Shown one piece after another: positions 5,534 through 10,499 of a stretch of DNA of 64,000 bases; positions within the stretch are counted from its first letter, which is position 1; the number at the start of each line of letters is the position of its first letter. This stretch comes from Eubacterium sp. (GTDB lineage Bacteria > Bacillota > Clostridia > Lachnospirales > Lachnospiraceae), in NCBI GenBank assembly GCA_017433295.1, contig JAFRHL010000054.1:46332-110331 (forward strand). Reading direction: 5' to 3'. The position numbers and the translations under genes are program-made. The notes under the pieces are model-generated. The model worked only from the letters and a program-made list of their open reading frames with translations. It was not told where the DNA came from and ran no database searches.

Positions 5534-6250
5534 ATGGGTTATGGATATGGATACGGATACGGCATGATGTATTTTGACTGGACCTATATTCTGGTGATTA
5601 TCGGCATAGTCATTACTATGATTGCCTCTTCTAAAGTAAAAACGACTTACGCAAAGTTTCAGAAGGTAAGGAGCCATTCCGGGATTACGGCAGCGCAGGC
5701 TGCGGAAAGGATCCTGCACGGAGCCGGCATCTACGATGTTTCCATCCAGCATATAGCAGGGAATCTTACTGATAATTATGATCCCAGAAGCAGAGTGCTC
5801 CATCTGTCTGATTCCACTTATCAGTCCACCTCCGTGGCAGCCATCGGTGTTGCCGCCCATGAGTGCGGCCATGCCATTCAGCATGCCAATGGATACGCCC
5901 CGTTAAGAGTAAGGGGGGCTATCGTTCCGGTGGTGAATTTCGGGTCGGTCCTTTCCTGGCCGATCATTCTTATTGGTGTTTTTCTGAGCTTTAACCAGAC
6001 TCTGATCAATGTGGGGATCATCCTTTTTTCCCTGACCGTACTCTTTCATCTGATCACCCTGCCGGTGGAGTTTGATGCTTCAGCCAGGGCCTTAAGGATC
6101 CTCGGGGACTCCCATCTCCTCTATGATGATGAAGTGGCAGGGGCTAAAAAGGTATTAACCGCGGCAGCCATGACATATGTGGCGGCAGCGGCGGCATCCC
6201 TGCTTCAGCTTTTGAGGCTTCTGCTCCTCTTTGGCCGGAGAAGAAACTGA
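5534..6250 (+). CDS. Neutral zinc metallopeptidase, membrane-bound (YugP-like)
   Basis: A 238-residue member of the zinc metallopeptidase_2 (YugP) family. The zinc motif HECGH is at residues 109-113, one helix anchors the N terminus (about 16-32) and two or three more lie in the C-terminal half. The first ten residues are a Gly-Tyr alternation (GYGYGYGYG), an unusual low-complexity start. AGGAGG lies 8-13 bases before the ATG. The last base of its stop codon is shared with the ATG of the next gene (ATGATGAA context), which suggests translational coupling to rlmH. Its substrate is unknown. Confidence 0.88.
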   Translation: MGYGYGYGYGMMYFDWTYILVIIGIVITMIASSKVKTTYAKFQKVRSHSGITAAQAAERILHGAGIYDVSIQHIAGNLTDNYDPRSRVLHLSDSTYQSTSVAAIGVAAHECGHAIQHANGYAPLRVRGAIVPVVNFGSVLSWPIILIGVFLSFNQTLINVGIILFSLTVLFHLITLPVEFDASARALRILGDSHLLYDDEVAGAKKVLTAAAMTYVAAAAASLLQLLRLLLLFGRRRN

Positions 6251-6708
6251 TGAAAGATATCAAGATCATCTGTGTGGGAAAGATCAAAGAAGCCTATCTG
6301 GCTGACGGGATCGGAGCCCAGCTGGCTGCCATCCGGAAGAAGTATCCGGCAGTGGTTATTGAATGCAGAGATGAGCCGACCCCTGATGCCGCATCCGGTG
6401 CGGAAGAAAGAATGATCAAAGAGAAAGAGGGAGAGCGTATCCTGGCCCGCATCCGGGAAGAGGACTATGTGGCGGCTCTATGTATTGACGGAAAGCATTA
6501 TGACACAAGCTCATGGTTTGCCCATATGGATCATATCAGGGACCGGATATCCGGATCCCTGATCTTTGTGATAGGGGGATCTTTAGGTCTGTCGGAGTCC
6601 GTCATCAGACTGGCCGATGAGAAACTCAGCTTTTCCTCCATGACTTTTCCCCACCAGCTTATGCGGCTTATCCTCATGGAGCAGCTTGCCGGCTGGGCCG
6701 GACATTAG
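6250..6708 (+). CDS. RlmH-family SPOUT methyltransferase, C-terminally truncated (copy 1)
   Basis: This is an RlmH homologue; RlmH methylates N3 of pseudouridine 1915 in helix 69 of 23S rRNA. The cofactor-binding part of the knot is well kept: FVIGGSLGL (residues 106-114) and LSFSSMTFPHQLMRLILMEQ (126-145). It ends abruptly with LAGWAGH in place of the family's YRAFKIxxGEPYHK tail, which contributes to the active site in known RlmH dimers. The early EYxKRL motif is also missing (GIGAQLAAIRKKY instead). The other reading frames after EQ do not restore the tail, so this is not a simple frameshift. A second RlmH-like gene at 10059-10499 keeps exactly the parts lost here. It converges on the flippase gene with 15 bases between stops. 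Confidence 0.85.
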   Translation: MKDIKIICVGKIKEAYLADGIGAQLAAIRKKYPAVVIECRDEPTPDAASGAEERMIKEKEGERILARIREEDYVAALCIDGKHYDTSSWFAHMDHIRDRISGSLIFVIGGSLGLSESVIRLADEKLSFSSMTFPHQLMRLILMEQLAGWAGH

Positions 6709-6723
6709 ATCTGCTCTTTTTCA

Positions 6724-8265
6724 TCAGGCTTTAACGGAAATGAAAAGGATGGCCAGGGCAAATACCAGGCTGTAACCCAGACCGCTGATGCCCATATTGA
6801 GCAGGGGAGGCCATGAGGTCGCCTGGCTCAGATACCTGCAGGCATACTGTGACAGCCAGCCTGCTGACAGAGACAGGGCCGTGGGAAACAAGAGTGTCTT
6901 TTCTACGGAGAAGTCAAAGAAGGTGATCTGCAGCAGGGAAAAGAGATCCAGCAGCAGCTGCAGGATAAACCCGGCGATCATACCATAGAGGTAGCCTTTA
7001 ATGCCGGCGGAAGGAATAAACAGGAAGATACAGGCGATCCTTACCGTCACACAGAGAAGGCTGTGATACATGGTTTTTCTGGTATAACCAAAGCCGTTAA
7101 GCATACTCATAATGGTTGACGCAGCATACATGAATGGGCATATGGCTGCGAAGGTATAGATGTACTGGCCCGCTGTCCGGCTGTGAAATATGACTTCTCC
7201 CAGCATATTTCCGTAAAATAAAAAGACAAAGGAACTGAAGATCCCCAGGACAATACAATAGTGAAGACTTTTTGAGATGGTATATCTGATCTGTACCATC
7301 TTTTTTTGTTTATAGGAGGCCGAGATGGCCGGAAGCAGCATAACAGACAGAGAATTCGTTATGGTCGCCGGGAAGAAAAGAAAAGGAAAAGCCATTCCCG
7401 TCAGTGTCCCGTAGCTTTCCAGAGCCAGGTCCTGGCTGCCGTAAAAGCCTGTCAGTACCAGAGGGATCAATACAGCTTCCAGGCTGCTGACCAGGGTCAG
7501 GGAAAAATGATTGATGGTCAGGGGAATACTGAAGGTAAAAAACTCATTTAACATAGTTTTTGCGGGAATGATGTTTTCCTTCTTTTCAATAATTCGGCCC
7601 CTTCCGGAGAAGCTTCTTCTTCTGATTTTATTTCTTCCTGCGGTAAATAAACAGGCCAGGATACTGTAAATACAGGACAGGCCTTCTCCGATGACCATCC
7701 CCCAGATGGCCAGGGAAGCATCAGCATGCCGGGTGAATAATGTGACAGATAAGAAACAGATTCCTCCGACCCGGGAGATTTGCTCGATGAGCTGGCTGGC
7801 AGCAGCCACTGAAGACTTTCCGGAACCCAGATAGTATCCGTGGATGCAGGACTTTAAAGCCGCAAAGGGTAGTGCCAGGGAGGAAATCTGCAAAGCCTTT
7901 GCACAGGAAGCATTTTTTAGCAGATATCTGCAAATGAATCCCGAGCTGACATAAAGCAGAAGGGCCAGAAACAGAGAAAAAGAAACCATGATGATGCTGA
8001 CATAGCGCAGGAGTTTTATAGCATTTTTTTCCTGTTTGCAGGATAAATAACGGGAAGTCATATTGGAAACCCCGGTCTCGGATCCGTGGCAGATCAGGGT
8101 AAAGCAAAGGGCATATATAGGGAAAATGAGAGAATAAATTCCCAGTTCTCTGGCACCAATCAGGTCTGCCAGGAATATTCTGTTATAGAAGCCCAGTATT
8201 CTGGAAAGAAATCCGGATATGGTAAGAAGAAGAGTGCCGGTCAGTATTGTCTTTTTGTAGGACAT
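6724..8265 (-). CDS. SpoVB/MurJ-like polysaccharide flippase (MOP superfamily)
   Basis: A 513-residue integral membrane protein with about 12-14 hydrophobic helices, of the oligosaccharide flippase group that includes SpoVB and Wzx. The opening GTLLLTISGFLSRILGFYNRIFLADLIGARELGIYSL is typical of SpoVB-like proteins, and FPIYAL follows. It would move lipid-linked saccharides across the membrane for wall or spore cortex synthesis. An AAAGGA ribosome binding site precedes its start on the - strand. It is transcribed away from the cysteine desulfurase gene. A second flippase of the same superfamily is at 52252-53988. The exact substrate is unknown. Confidence 0.85.
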   Translation of the reverse strand: MSYKKTILTGTLLLTISGFLSRILGFYNRIFLADLIGARELGIYSLIFPIYALCFTLICHGSETGVSNMTSRYLSCKQEKNAIKLLRYVSIIMVSFSLFLALLLYVSSGFICRYLLKNASCAKALQISSLALPFAALKSCIHGYYLGSGKSSVAAASQLIEQISRVGGICFLSVTLFTRHADASLAIWGMVIGEGLSCIYSILACLFTAGRNKIRRRSFSGRGRIIEKKENIIPAKTMLNEFFTFSIPLTINHFSLTLVSSLEAVLIPLVLTGFYGSQDLALESYGTLTGMAFPFLFFPATITNSLSVMLLPAISASYKQKKMVQIRYTISKSLHYCIVLGIFSSFVFLFYGNMLGEVIFHSRTAGQYIYTFAAICPFMYAASTIMSMLNGFGYTRKTMYHSLLCVTVRIACIFLFIPSAGIKGYLYGMIAGFILQLLLDLFSLLQITFFDFSVEKTLLFPTALSLSAGWLSQYACRYLSQATSWPPLLNMGISGLGYSLVFALAILFISVKA

Positions 8266-8276
8266 AATATGTTCCT

Positions 8277-8305
8277 TTGTCCGGGAGTTCTTTATAGAAT
8301 ATGAT
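8277..8305 (+). promoter_or_regulatory. Probable promoter for the cysteine desulfurase gene
   Basis: TTGTCC (8277-8282), a 17-base spacer and TATGAT (8300-8305) lie in the short divergent region between the flippase and the desulfurase. Confidence 0.5.
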
Positions 8306-8348
8306 AAAAACGGGAAAAATAGAATCTGCGAGAACAGGAGTTTTGATT

Positions 8349-9593
8349 ATGGCAGTCATTTATCTTGATCATGCTGCGACCACGCCGGTCCTTCCTGAGG
8401 TTTTAGAAGCCATGGAACCCTATTATAAGGAAAAATACGGGAATCCCTCCAGCTCCTACGGGACGGGAACAAAGAGGAAGGAGGAGATCGAAGAAGTCAG
8501 GAAAGTGATCGCGGACAGCATCAATGCATCACCCCATGAAATATATTTTACCTCCGGAGGGACAGAATCAGATAACTGGGTCTTAAAAGGGATCCGGAAC
8601 AGGTATATTAATAAAAACATAGGCTATGTGACAAGCAGTATAGAACATCATGCAATCCTCCATTGTTGCGACAGCCTGAAGCAGGAAAATGTTCTCACCA
8701 CCCAGCTGCAGGTGGATGAACAGGGGATTGTCTGTACAGACCAGATCGAAAATAACCTGACAGATGACACTGTGCTGGTCTCCCTGATGTATGCAAACAA
8801 TGAAACAGGAGCTATCCAACCGGTAAAAAAAGCATGTTATTTATGTAAAGAACATAATATTTTGTTCCACACAGATGCTGTTCAGGCCTATGGTCATATT
8901 CCCCTTGATGTGAAAGAAGACGGTGTGGACTTTTTAAGTGCCAGCGCTCATAAATTCGGAGGCCCAAAGGGGGTCGGATTTCTTTATATCAGGGAGGGGA
9001 CCGATCTTCCCGCCATGATAGATGGCGGCGGTCAGGAATATGGCAAAAGAGCCGGGACGGAAAATGTGGCGGGCATCGTAGGTATGGGGGTGGCCGCCGG
9101 ACTTGCCGTAAAGAGAATGGAGGAAGACTACAAAAAGATAAAAAGACTCAGGGATTATCTGGAAAGGAAGCTGCTCCATGAGATCCCCTTATCAAGAATC
9201 AACGGACCGTTCGGAATGAGCAGGAGCAGGAGCTTTGAACCGGGAAGAGATGATATTGATATATCCACTGAAAAAAGACTTCCCGGTCATCTGAATATCA
9301 GCTTCCAGTTTATTCACGGGCCGGAGCTGGCAGCCCTGCTTGATCAGGAAGGAATCTGTGTATCCACGGGATCGGCCTGCAGCTCGGGATCAGGAAACAT
9401 TTCTCATGTACTGGAAGCCATGCAGGTTCCTTGGGAACTGGCAGGAGGAACCATTCGTATCACCATCGGAAGAGAAAATACCCCGGAAGAAATGGACCGT
9501 ACTGCAGCCGTTGTCAGAAAATCTGTAGAGTATCTCAGAAAAAAATCTATATCATATGAGGACTTTTATCTTGCATATTCAGACAGACTGTAG
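8349..9593 (+). CDS. Cysteine desulfurase (NifS/IscS family)
   Basis: A PLP enzyme that removes sulfur from cysteine for Fe-S cluster or thionucleoside synthesis. The N terminus MAVIYLDHAATTP, the PLP lysine in SASAHKFGGPKG (Lys202) and the catalytic cysteine in STGSACSSGS (Cys344) are all present. An open frame extends back to 8301, but ACAGGAG before 8349 and the family N terminus support this start. Compared with the usual ENGHPEKRLPGN-type loop there is an insertion of roughly 17 residues rich in Ser, Arg and Asp before EKRLPGHLNISF (about 290-307). No iscU, thiI or mnmA gene is adjacent, so the sulfur acceptor cannot be read from context. Confidence 0.92.
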   Translation: MAVIYLDHAATTPVLPEVLEAMEPYYKEKYGNPSSSYGTGTKRKEEIEEVRKVIADSINASPHEIYFTSGGTESDNWVLKGIRNRYINKNIGYVTSSIEHHAILHCCDSLKQENVLTTQLQVDEQGIVCTDQIENNLTDDTVLVSLMYANNETGAIQPVKKACYLCKEHNILFHTDAVQAYGHIPLDVKEDGVDFLSASAHKFGGPKGVGFLYIREGTDLPAMIDGGGQEYGKRAGTENVAGIVGMGVAAGLAVKRMEEDYKKIKRLRDYLERKLLHEIPLSRINGPFGMSRSRSFEPGRDDIDISTEKRLPGHLNISFQFIHGPELAALLDQEGICVSTGSACSSGSGNISHVLEAMQVPWELAGGTIRITIGRENTPEEMDRTAAVVRKSVEYLRKKSISYEDFYLAYSDRL

Positions 9594-9599
9594 TATAAT
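9571..9599 (+). promoter_or_regulatory. Promoter of tRNA-Arg
   Basis: TTGCAT (9571-9576), a 17-base spacer and a consensus TATAAT (9594-9599). The -35 box lies inside the end of the desulfurase gene. The start of transcription would fall near 9606. Confidence 0.75.
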
Positions 9600-9605
9600 A
9601 TCCGT

Positions 9606-9626
9606 CGTGAAAGTCAGACTTTCACG
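9606..9626 (+). other. Perfect hairpin in the tRNA-Arg leader
   Basis: CGTGAAAGT and ACTTTCACG form a perfect 9-base stem with a CAG loop. It begins where transcription from the promoter above should start and ends one base before the mature tRNA, so it would be the 5' leader removed by RNase P. It could also act as a weak terminator for the upstream gene, but no T-run follows. Confidence 0.6.
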
Positions 9627-9627
9627 T

Positions 9628-9701
9628 GGTCCAGTAGCTCAGTTGGATAGAGCAACGGTTTCCGGAGCCGTGTGTCGGGGGTTCGAATCCCTTCTGGATC
9701 A
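9628..9701 (+). tRNA. tRNA-Arg (anticodon CCG)
   Basis: A full cloverleaf can be folded. The acceptor stem is GGTCCAG / CTGGATC (9628-9634 / 9694-9700) with discriminator A9701. The D arm is GCTC...GAGC. The anticodon stem ACGGT / GCCGT encloses the loop TTCCGGA, so the anticodon at 9662-9664 is CCG, reading CGG. The T arm is GGGGG-TTCGAAT-CCCTT with two G-U pairs. CCA is not encoded. Confidence 0.95.
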
Positions 9702-9708
9702 TATGATG

Positions 9709-9748
9709 CAGGGAGCACAGGAAAGCAGAACGCTGTGCTCCCTGTTTC
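9709..9748 (+). terminator. Terminator after tRNA-Arg
   Basis: CAGGGAGCACAG (9709-9720) pairs perfectly with CTGTGCTCCCTG (9733-9744) and is followed by TTTCTATATATA. Confidence 0.8.
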
Positions 9749-9770
9749 TATATATATAGGATATGTAAAT

Positions 9771-9817
9771 ACCGGCCTGCCGGAGTCGGGTAGTCCGGAA
9801 ACCGGCAGGCAGCCGGT
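9771..9817 (+). promoter_or_regulatory. Inverted repeat in the leader of the DUF1858 gene
   Basis: ACCGGCCTGCCGG and CCGGCAGG-CAGCCGGT form an imperfect GC-rich hairpin about 40 bases before the next gene. No T-run follows, so it is more likely a leader structure or operator than a terminator. Confidence 0.35.
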
Positions 9818-9858
9818 ATGGCTGCCGCATATTATACTGAGTCTGTAAGGAGGATATT

Positions 9859-10062
9859 ATGAGACGAAGACTGACAAAAGACACTACGATTGGTGATTTA
9901 CTGCTGATGGACCCTGAAATCGGAGCTGTGCTTTCCAGTATCGGTATGCACTGCATCGGCTGTCCCTCAGCCCGGGGTGAGACCCTGGAACAGGCCGCCG
10001 AGGTTCACGGACTGGACGTGGACGACCTGATTGAAGACCTGAAGGGCTTCATGGGGGCATGA
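9859..10062 (+). CDS. DUF1858 domain protein
   Basis: A 67-residue protein that consists of a single DUF1858 domain. It has TIGDLLLMDPEIGAVLSSIGMHCIGCPSA-type features: the CxxC pair (HCIGC) followed by GETLEQAAEVHGLDVDDL. Such proteins are frequent in anaerobes and resemble the N-terminal helical part of hybrid-cluster and ScdA-like proteins; their function is not established. GGAGG lies a few bases before the ATG. The stop overlaps the start of the RlmH-like gene by four bases (ATGA), so the two are probably translated together. Confidence 0.88.
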   Translation: MRRRLTKDTTIGDLLLMDPEIGAVLSSIGMHCIGCPSARGETLEQAAEVHGLDVDDLIEDLKGFMGA

Positions 10063-10499
10063 GATACGAAGTTTATATCTATAACAAGGCCAGGCCCCTG
10101 GCCTATTTAAAAGATGCCGCAGATGAATACACTAAACGGCTTTCCCGCTATTGTAAGACCGGCTATCATTATATAAAAAAGGAAAAGATCTGGGAGAAGA
10201 CCTGGAACCAGGCCTCTGACAGAATCCTGATCCTGCCCGGAAAAGGATCCGTATCATCCGAGGCCTTCAGCCGGAAGCTGGAAAGCCTGGAGATGGAGGG
10301 AAAAGGAAGTGTCTCTTTTTTCATCCCGGACCCCGTCCATCTGCGGGAGTGGTGTACTTGTCAGACGACAGGGGATTATCAGGGAGATATCATCAACCTC
10401 TCTGATTTTACCATGAGTTCCTCCCTGACCGGAGTCGTTCTTCTGGAACAGATCTATCGGGGATACCGCATTATGCATCATCATCCCTATCATAAATAG
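10059..10499 (+). CDS. Divergent RlmH paralogue with lost SAM loop (copy 2)
   Basis: A 146-residue protein whose ends match RlmH but whose centre does not. EYTKRLSRY (residues 23-31) is the N-terminal RlmH motif, and LLEQIYRGYRIMHHHPYHK (128-146) is the family C-terminal tail. In contrast, the VIGGxxG cofactor loop is replaced by FFIPDPVHLREW (88-98), and MTFPHQ is changed to FTMSSSLTG. It is therefore unlikely to bind S-adenosylmethionine alone. Copy 1 at 6250-6708 keeps the cofactor loop but lacks the EYxKRL and PYHK parts. I infer that the two may form a heterodimer. It overlaps the DUF1858 gene by four bases. Confidence 0.8.
   Translation: MRYEVYIYNKARPLAYLKDAADEYTKRLSRYCKTGYHYIKKEKIWEKTWNQASDRILILPGKGSVSSEAFSRKLESLEMEGKGSVSFFIPDPVHLREWCTCQTTGDYQGDIINLSDFTMSSSLTGVVLLEQIYRGYRIMHHHPYHK

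Follow-up and report, generated by a model that had tools for sequence, protein, structure and literature searches.

The window analysed here, a stretch of 64,000 nucleotides from a Eubacterium sp., an Anaerobutyricum hallii relative from the gut, carries two genes related to the ribosomal methyltransferase RlmH, and raises the question of whether two paralogues, each lacking a different part of an enzyme, can together make up one. An earlier note had read the pair as an obligate heterodimer with a single active site. In E. coli RlmH, S-adenosylmethionine (SAM) is bound on one monomer and the tail comes from the other (PMC5430550), and the losses described for the two genes agree with these two monomer roles. 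The translations, together with matches to the Pfam family SPOUT_MTase (PF02590), confirmed both open reading frames and their complementary losses. Copy 1, or subunit A (6250–6708; all features are on the forward strand), encodes a tail-less RlmH of 152 aa, the putative SAM-binding half. Its translation contains the cofactor loop VIGGSLGL (6568–6591) and MTFPHQ, has AQLAAI at the position of EYxKRL and ends in EQLAGWAGH. Copy 2, or subunit B (10059–10499), encodes a putative tail-donor paralogue of 146 aa that lacks the SAM loop. It keeps EYTKRL, with the RNA-side residues 25 and 26 (10125–10142), has IPDPVHLREW in place of the cofactor loop (10323–10352), and retains the end of the catalytic helix and the PYHK tail as EQIYRGYRIMHHHPYHK (10446–10496). 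Directly upstream of A, and sharing its first base, lies a Zn_peptidase_2 gene (5534–6250; PF04298, 314 bits), which also adjoins A in further genera of the family that have the split (L106, L110 and L115) and is one gene away from A in L203. The start of B overlaps by 4 bases with the gene for a DUF1858 redox-disulfide protein (9859–10062; PF08984, 77.8 bits; TIGR03980, 89.9 bits).

Neither subunit combines loop and tail in one chain, as a single-chain RlmH does. The loop glycines equivalent to B. subtilis residues 108 and 112 are present in 67 of 67 A proteins and the tail His158 in 2 of 67, whereas B keeps the tail, a class-defining feature, and has R142 in 64 of 64 proteins, Gly at 112 in none of 64 and His at 134 in none of 64. 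Copy 1 matches PF02590 with 129 bits over model positions 3–141 of 154, and copy 2 with 72.6 bits over positions 1–154; both pass the curated cut-off of 27. Their scores are too low for the NCBIfam RlmH equivalog models (NF000985, 155.5 and 69.1 bits versus a cut-off of 172; TIGR00246, 109.5 and 50.4 versus 149.7), so annotation may miss or mislabel them. Single-chain structure prediction models A as a complete RlmH fold and B also as an RlmH fold, and in most of the aligned B proteins the interface positions 122, 125 and 127 remain hydrophobic. The sequence of B changes fast around the former SAM loop, with insertions.

We considered whether copy 1 is the product of a frameshift or assembly error and rejected this, as all 21 copies from the genus stop at almost the same position. 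Reading the 75 bases that follow the stop in every frame revealed no remnant of a lost tail, either in copy 1 or in 23 relatives, of which 20 belong to the genus and 3 to other families. PF02590 matches running over the stop of A had looked like a decayed tail, a reading that the three-frame inspection did not uphold.

To place the pair in a wider context we searched for PF02590 across genomes. The draft genome that holds the window (2.9 Mb, 56 contigs, 91% complete) gave copies 1 and 2 as the only matches, so that the absence of a third RlmH claimed for the window extends to the whole draft genome. A full-length RlmH elsewhere, which the earlier note held would count against the pairing, was likewise found in none of 24 genomes from the genus to which Anaerobutyricum hallii belongs. 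The expectation that the two genes always occur together held in 19 of these 24; the exceptions, two with A only, one with B only and two with neither, are all drafts of 70–96% completeness. Neither of these checks overturned the earlier reading. A and B were found together in 17 of 392 genomes of the order sample, none of the 17 having a third match, and in 10 of 391 of the class sample (our own genome is counted in both). The split recurs in many other Clostridia and in many families, and in two lineages the genes overlap, by 4 nt (L286) and 23 nt (L272). Against strict pairing, however, A occurs without B in 6 genomes (70–92% complete) and B without A in 5 (78–98% complete). L279 and L280 lack a separate B, and their only RlmH copy has an altered tail. 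In Bacilli, B also accompanies an RlmH of almost full length, whose tail is intact in one case (L243), and the term obligate can therefore apply at most to the Clostridial state and not to the family as a whole. On the tree made in this analysis B forms one clade, and the tails of A have been altered several times. A tree-based test of independent pairs was not significant; of 6 usable pairs on starred branches approximately 2 agreed, none opposed and 4 showed no difference.

We evaluated the division of residues in an alignment of 67 A and 64 B proteins, with a genus subset of 21 copies of A and 19 of B. In this subset G108, G112 and H134 (B. subtilis numbering) occur in 21, 21 and 21 of the copy 1 proteins and in 2, 0 and 0 of the copy 2 proteins, and R26, Y146 and H158 in 0, 0 and 0 of the former and 19, 19 and 19 of the latter. 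Because loop and tail served to define the classes, their own columns are circular as evidence, but columns outside the definition divide likewise: R26 (20/67 A versus 64/64 B), Y146 (16/67 versus 63/64), R142 (30/67 versus 64/64), H129 (67/67 versus 0/64) and Arg at B. subtilis position 138 (63/67 versus 0/64). K25, with 30 of 67 in A, is invariant in B alongside R26 and R142, and the two SAM-loop glycines and H129 are invariant in A. Two columns run against this division: K42, which in E. coli belongs to the A side, is present in only 29 of 67 A proteins and in none of the 21 of the genus, and the tail-side E138 is still found in 53 of 67. Judged from these alignments, the genus-wide complementary losses are not due to chance, and the residues are shared out between A and B in the way expected from the two monomers of the E. 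coli structure (PMC5430550). Both genes are under purifying selection, with dN/dS values of 0.07–0.15 for A in 8 pairs and 0.05–0.27 for B in the 7 of these 8 that were computable, several dS values being near saturation. A protein lacking both halves was seen once among 254, as a broken piece.

These data allow us to propose that A and B are very probably two subunits of one split RlmH and pair as a heterodimer whose single active site is composite. The analysis shows that the residue losses are complementary, that the genes co-occur and are under purifying selection, and that each part has a predicted RlmH fold, and the first interpretation, a heterodimer with one active site, is supported by comparison of the sequences. 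We infer that A and B heterodimerise and that their target is still pseudouridine 1915 of 23S rRNA. A would bind SAM in its knotted pocket, and B would dock on A as the partner monomer, supplying the RNA-side Lys and Arg of EYxKRL, the E138–R142 helix and the Y152–H153–K154 tail. The resulting composite site would methylate pseudouridine 1915. In E. coli RlmH the substitutions E138A/Q, Y152F, H153F and R154A each leave the enzyme dead, and the second SAM site has a KD of ~1 mM (reported for OrfX) as against 5.6 µM for the first (PMC5430550).

The best-surviving alternative, which we nonetheless consider unlikely, is that A alone is the methyltransferase, a tail-less homodimer in which other residues replace the tail, and that B has another function such as ribosome or RNA binding. 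The retention of E138 in most A proteins, the complete predicted fold of A and the 6 draft genomes with A and no B would fit this. It is difficult to reconcile with the essential role of Y152, H153, R154 and E138 in E. coli (PMC5430550), with the loss from A of R26 in most proteins, R142 in 37 of 67 and E138 in 14 of 67, all of which B keeps, and with the overlapping A–B gene pairs of two lineages. Less probable still is a pair that no longer methylates, acting as a heterodimer that binds 70S without catalysis, or as assembly factors. Although the fast change of B around its former SAM loop is in keeping with such a role, loss of methylation would be expected to free both the SAM pocket of A and R26 and R142 of B, and these are invariant (positions 108, 112 and H129 in 67 of 67 A proteins). 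That these are two decaying duplicates, each without part of the enzyme by coincidence, is scarcely credible given dN/dS of 0.05–0.27 across both genes, their joint retention in 19 of 24 genus genomes and in many families, and the broken piece as sole protein without both halves.

If A and B make up a split RlmH, where might a separate tail donor have come from? In some Bacilli the rlmH 3' end has received an island, with B either adjacent to it or at its distal end, and the host tail is altered. At all four Paenibacillus loci where B faces A, a large serine recombinase adjoins the rlmH 3' end and B faces it from 11.5–14.7 kb away; the recombinase was identified by its Pfam domains in L300 and by phmmer in the other three. 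In three of the four the codons for the lost PYHK end sit beyond B, and the host tail reads PYRL or PYRF. Evansella, too, has the rlmH end copied on the far side of its island, with no recombinase match there. At five loci with an extra rlmH-end copy and no linked B, the host tail remains PYHK. B appears, from gene order and tail sequence, to be a tail donor also carried by islands in some Paenibacillus.

A search of 129 loci with the Paenibacillus recombinase matched 4, all from Paenibacillus; the other 125, many of them short and the Clostridial loci among them, gave none, and the 64 kb window had no match to this sole integrase query. An 85-aa match in L310 is antisense to rlmH, is explained by the query end overlapping rlmH, and was not counted. 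We also asked whether all Bacillaceae with two PF02590 matches carry B, which was not borne out. At least two matches occur in 13 of 151 genomes, two of which (G742 and G743) were already known to carry B. For nine of the other eleven, the 17 kb downstream of rlmH contain no full B, and the second match was located in two of these nine, as an rlmH 3' fragment (L307 and L315); in the remaining two of the eleven (G1235 and G1239) the second match is full-length. A tblastn search with Paenibacillus B returned 41 plasmid and 25 phage records, all below 60% identity. Carriage of B on such elements was not borne out among the 15 matches listed per set, nearly all of which span ~159 codons, as ordinary RlmH does. 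The viral scan found no B on viral contigs.

Somewhat short of an even chance, in our estimate, is a model where B is a trans-rescue subunit spread by islands that hit the rlmH tail. An island would integrate into the catalytic-tail codons of a ribosomal methyltransferase, changing the tail, and would bring the stripped-down paralogue B, whose own tail would make good the loss from the other side of the dimer interface. From then on a working enzyme would depend on the island gene, tying the cell to the island in an addiction-like manner. This arrangement may have become permanent, as a two-gene RlmH, in Anaerobutyricum and many other Clostridia.

If the split is real, nature would have pulled apart the two roles that meet in a composite SPOUT active site, so that the contribution of each monomer, and the reason for the dimer having a single strong SAM site, could be tested directly. 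It would also suggest how a homodimer can turn into an obligate heterodimer, with extant species perhaps still showing the intermediate stages, and how an island inserted in the rlmH end can be tolerated.

The closest known system is RlmH itself (YbeA, OrfX; COG1576, PF02590), which resembles A and B in fold and residues and whose active site is composite across the dimer (PMC5430550). It is, however, a homodimer from one gene with both roles in each chain, whereas A and B would divide these roles between two genes. Yeast Upa1–Upa2 are likewise two SPOUT paralogues presumed to act on the ribosome as a heterodimer, but they belong to another SPOUT family, the heterodimer is assumed, and the available portion of the account describes no division of SAM pocket and tail (PMC8994135). 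SCCmec, the enterococcal cassette chromosome and Paenibacillus islands, as far as the accessible text goes, share the large serine recombinase and insertion at the last rlmH codons, and have the rlmH-end repeats and composite islands seen at the Paenibacillus B loci; unlike those loci, no tail-donor paralogue is mentioned in those parts of the sources (PMC6222049, PMC10061031). In the trypanosome AdoMetDC–prozyme system, according to the section available, an enzyme and its catalytically dead paralogue form an active heterodimer, as proposed here for A and B (PMC6221367). There the dead paralogue is named an activator, whereas A and B seem to hold different halves of the active site.

Two RlmH-family reading frames lie on the forward strand of the window, 3.4 kb apart, and each lacks a part that a standard RlmH carries in its single chain. 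Copy 1 (6250-6708, 152 aa; hereafter A) matches PF02590 at 129 bits over model positions 3-141, and copy 2 (10059-10499, 146 aa; hereafter B) at 72.6 bits over positions 1-154; neither reaches the NCBIfam RlmH equivalog cut-offs. Their motifs are as the earlier note described them: A has VIGGSLGL and MTFPHQ but not EYxKRL, and B has EYTKRL and EQIYRGYRIMHHHPYHK, with IPDPVHLREW occupying the cofactor-loop position. The A protein ends in EQLAGWAGH. When the entire draft genome (2.9 Mb, 91% complete) was searched with PF02590, only A and B were returned; the note had stated that the window has no third RlmH. Between the two genes are a membrane protein that appears flippase-like by reading of its sequence, a cysteine desulfurase, a tRNA-Arg (CCG; 9627-9702) just upstream of B, and a DUF1858 gene (9859-10062) that overlaps the start of B by 4 bases. 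Among the relatives' loci searched, L039 is the sole carrier of this DUF1858 gene.

The earlier note read the losses as mutually exclusive, as expected of an obligate heterodimer with one active site. In a study of the E. coli homodimer (Koh et al. 2017, PMC5430550), SAM is bound on one monomer (its monomer A) with K11, K42 and R43, and R25, R26, R142, R154 and the tail come from the other (its monomer B); the variants E138A/Q, Y152F, H153F and R154A are inactive. The same study gives a KD of 5.6 µM for the first SAM site, with the second empty below 500 µM, and cites about 1 mM for the second site of OrfX. We counted the corresponding residues, in B. subtilis numbering, in 46 standard, 67 A and 64 B rows, whose A and B classes were set by loop and tail columns that exclude the six positions R26, Y146, R147, H134, R138 and G9. 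R26 is retained in 46/46 standard, 20/67 A (0/21 in the window's genus) and 64/64 B rows, Y146 in 46/46, 16/67 and 63/64, and R147 (equivalent to R142) in 46/46, 30/67 and 64/64. H134 (equivalent to H129) is retained in 46/46 standard, 67/67 A and 0/64 B rows, R138 in 42/46, 63/67 and 0/64, and G9 in 46/46, 67/67 and 14/64. The K42/R43 stretch is missing from 62 of the 64 B proteins; K42 is found in 29/67 A proteins overall and in 0/21 of the genus, and E138 is still present in 53/67. Interface positions 122, 125 and 127 are hydrophobic in most B rows. By and large, A retains the half that binds SAM, and B retains the RNA and tail half. The simplest explanation is that the two proteins are the subunits of a single enzyme.

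The window's genus takes in Anaerobutyricum hallii, and Anaerobutyricum species head the named records closest to a profile of the genus B proteins. Joint occurrence holds for most of its 24 genomes, the window's own included, and not for all: 19 have both genes (B being divided between two contigs in one), two have A only, one B only and two neither. The five exceptions are all drafts of 70-96% completeness, and in the B-only genome (G006) the contig ends 698 bases away from B, and the missing A may sit in a gap. By PF02590 search, none of the 24 has a standard RlmH; a single full-length RlmH is found in 13/13 other genera of the family in the same sample. Within the genus, the E/D/Q-Q of helix 5 is directly followed by the stop in all 21 A proteins, and YHK is the C-terminus of all 19 uncut B proteins.

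The pair is also found in other lineages. At least two PF02590 matches occur in 23 of 392 genomes of an order sample and in 24 of 391 of a class sample, both counts including the window's own genome, and these are A+B pairs in 17/23 and 10/24, respectively; the remaining six of the order sample are explained by fragments, by splits between contigs or by two full-length copies. Seven further genera of the family have the pair, one already within the 17. A set of 254 distinct proteins, each 105 aa or longer, comprises 117 with both loop and tail, 72 with the loop only, 64 with the tail only and one, a broken piece, with neither. A and B are frequently adjacent across lineages, either convergent, with their tails no more than about 160 bases apart (G039, G153, G235, G483, G525, G539, G595, G601, G1078, L192 and L203) or on the same strand, where the overlap is 4 bases in L286 and 23 bases in L272. 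A without detected B (G019, G023, G541, G641, G648, G655) and B without detected A (G006, G484, G511, G549, G910) occur in drafts only. Separately, L279 and L280 (G1114, G1030) each hold one highly divergent RlmH with a tail ending in YDK or YNK, and no separate B was found there, a change of the tail by a different route.

A tree was built from 177 proteins: 67 A (5 of the 72 loop-only proteins, broken or cut at contig ends, were left out), 64 B, 45 of the 117 standard rows and B. subtilis. B forms one side of a single branch (SH-aLRT 99) in this unrooted tree of about 150 columns, few data with which mutual attraction of the fast-evolving B rows is possible. A is not one group; 54/67 fall together (SH-aLRT 93), with the remainder scattered among standard RlmH. 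Labels change 8 times, at least 4 of them forced, and 14 times, at least 3 forced, when columns from E138 onward are removed. B is one clade, whereas the A tail seems to have undergone loss or alteration on several occasions; B may therefore be the older specialist. Hand scoring of the A and standard rows gave 59 with B found and the tail broken, 1 with B found and the tail intact, 45 with no B found and the tail intact, and 8 with no B found and the tail broken, in a sample that is non-random because many loci were chosen for two-match genomes and that takes B. subtilis as B-less. An independent-pairs test of B presence against tail state was not significant.

The genus B profile also found B in eight Bacilli records, in genomes that have a nearly full-length RlmH as well. 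The host tail is changed in seven: PYRL, PYRL, PYRF and PYRR in four Paenibacillus, GYRTKL in Evansella, and AYHTKP in Cytobacillus gottheilii and Bacillus mediterraneensis. In the eighth, recorded as Bacillus sp. FJAT-26390 (L243), the host tail is intact and B is on a separate contig. In each of these Paenibacillus, the rlmH end is overlapped on the opposite strand by a large serine recombinase, and B faces rlmH at 11.5-14.7 kb. One recombinase was scanned and has Resolvase, Recombinase and Zn ribbon domains; its counterparts in the remaining three were recognised by their similarity to it. The intervening genes, where scanned, include those for an Eco57I-like methylase, a ResIII-like protein and an AAA ATPase accompanied by a subtilase. 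In the rlmH island of Paenibacillus barcinonensis (L301, 4137-13098), an Eco57I-like methylase lies with two scanned neighbours that have no Pfam match, possibly a defence system.

GEPYHK-stop codons in the rlmH orientation lie past B in three of the four Paenibacillus and, as one copy, in Evansella; none was found past B in P. sanguinis, Cytobacillus or B. mediterraneensis. Paenibacillus terrae (L142, 1055-7804, minus strand) has four such repeats past B, which suggests stacked (composite) islands. In control searches with the same pattern, 16 ordinary Lachnospiraceae loci gave no match beyond their 16 rlmH ends, and the rlmH end was likewise the sole match in five Bacillaceae loci (L308, L309, L311, L312, L314). 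Extra rlmH-end codons downstream of an intact rlmH, with no linked B, were seen in L307, L310, L313, L315 and L318 (four Bacillaceae-sample genomes and that of Bacillus sp. FJAT-26390); L307 and L315 additionally carry an rlmH 3' fragment. The host tail is PYHK in all five loci with an extra end and no B within 17 kb (G1203, G1205, G1254, G1263, G744). Tails are changed in 7/7 B-linked loci versus 0/5 extra-end loci without linked B, a comparison between non-independent species in which G744 has a B elsewhere and G1254 and G1263 possibly do.

In one Clostridial genome (G826) the A tail ends directly after EP, close to the same place, with B 13.6 kb off on the same strand; a search with the Paenibacillus recombinase matched neither the window nor any of the Clostridial loci. 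The unrooted tree is compatible with B starting on islands or being acquired by them. Among the open-access passages searched, none described an RlmH paralogue that donates a tail or an RlmH that works as a heterodimer. SCC-like islands are known to insert at the end of rlmH, including in a Paenibacillus (PMC6222049, PMC10061031).
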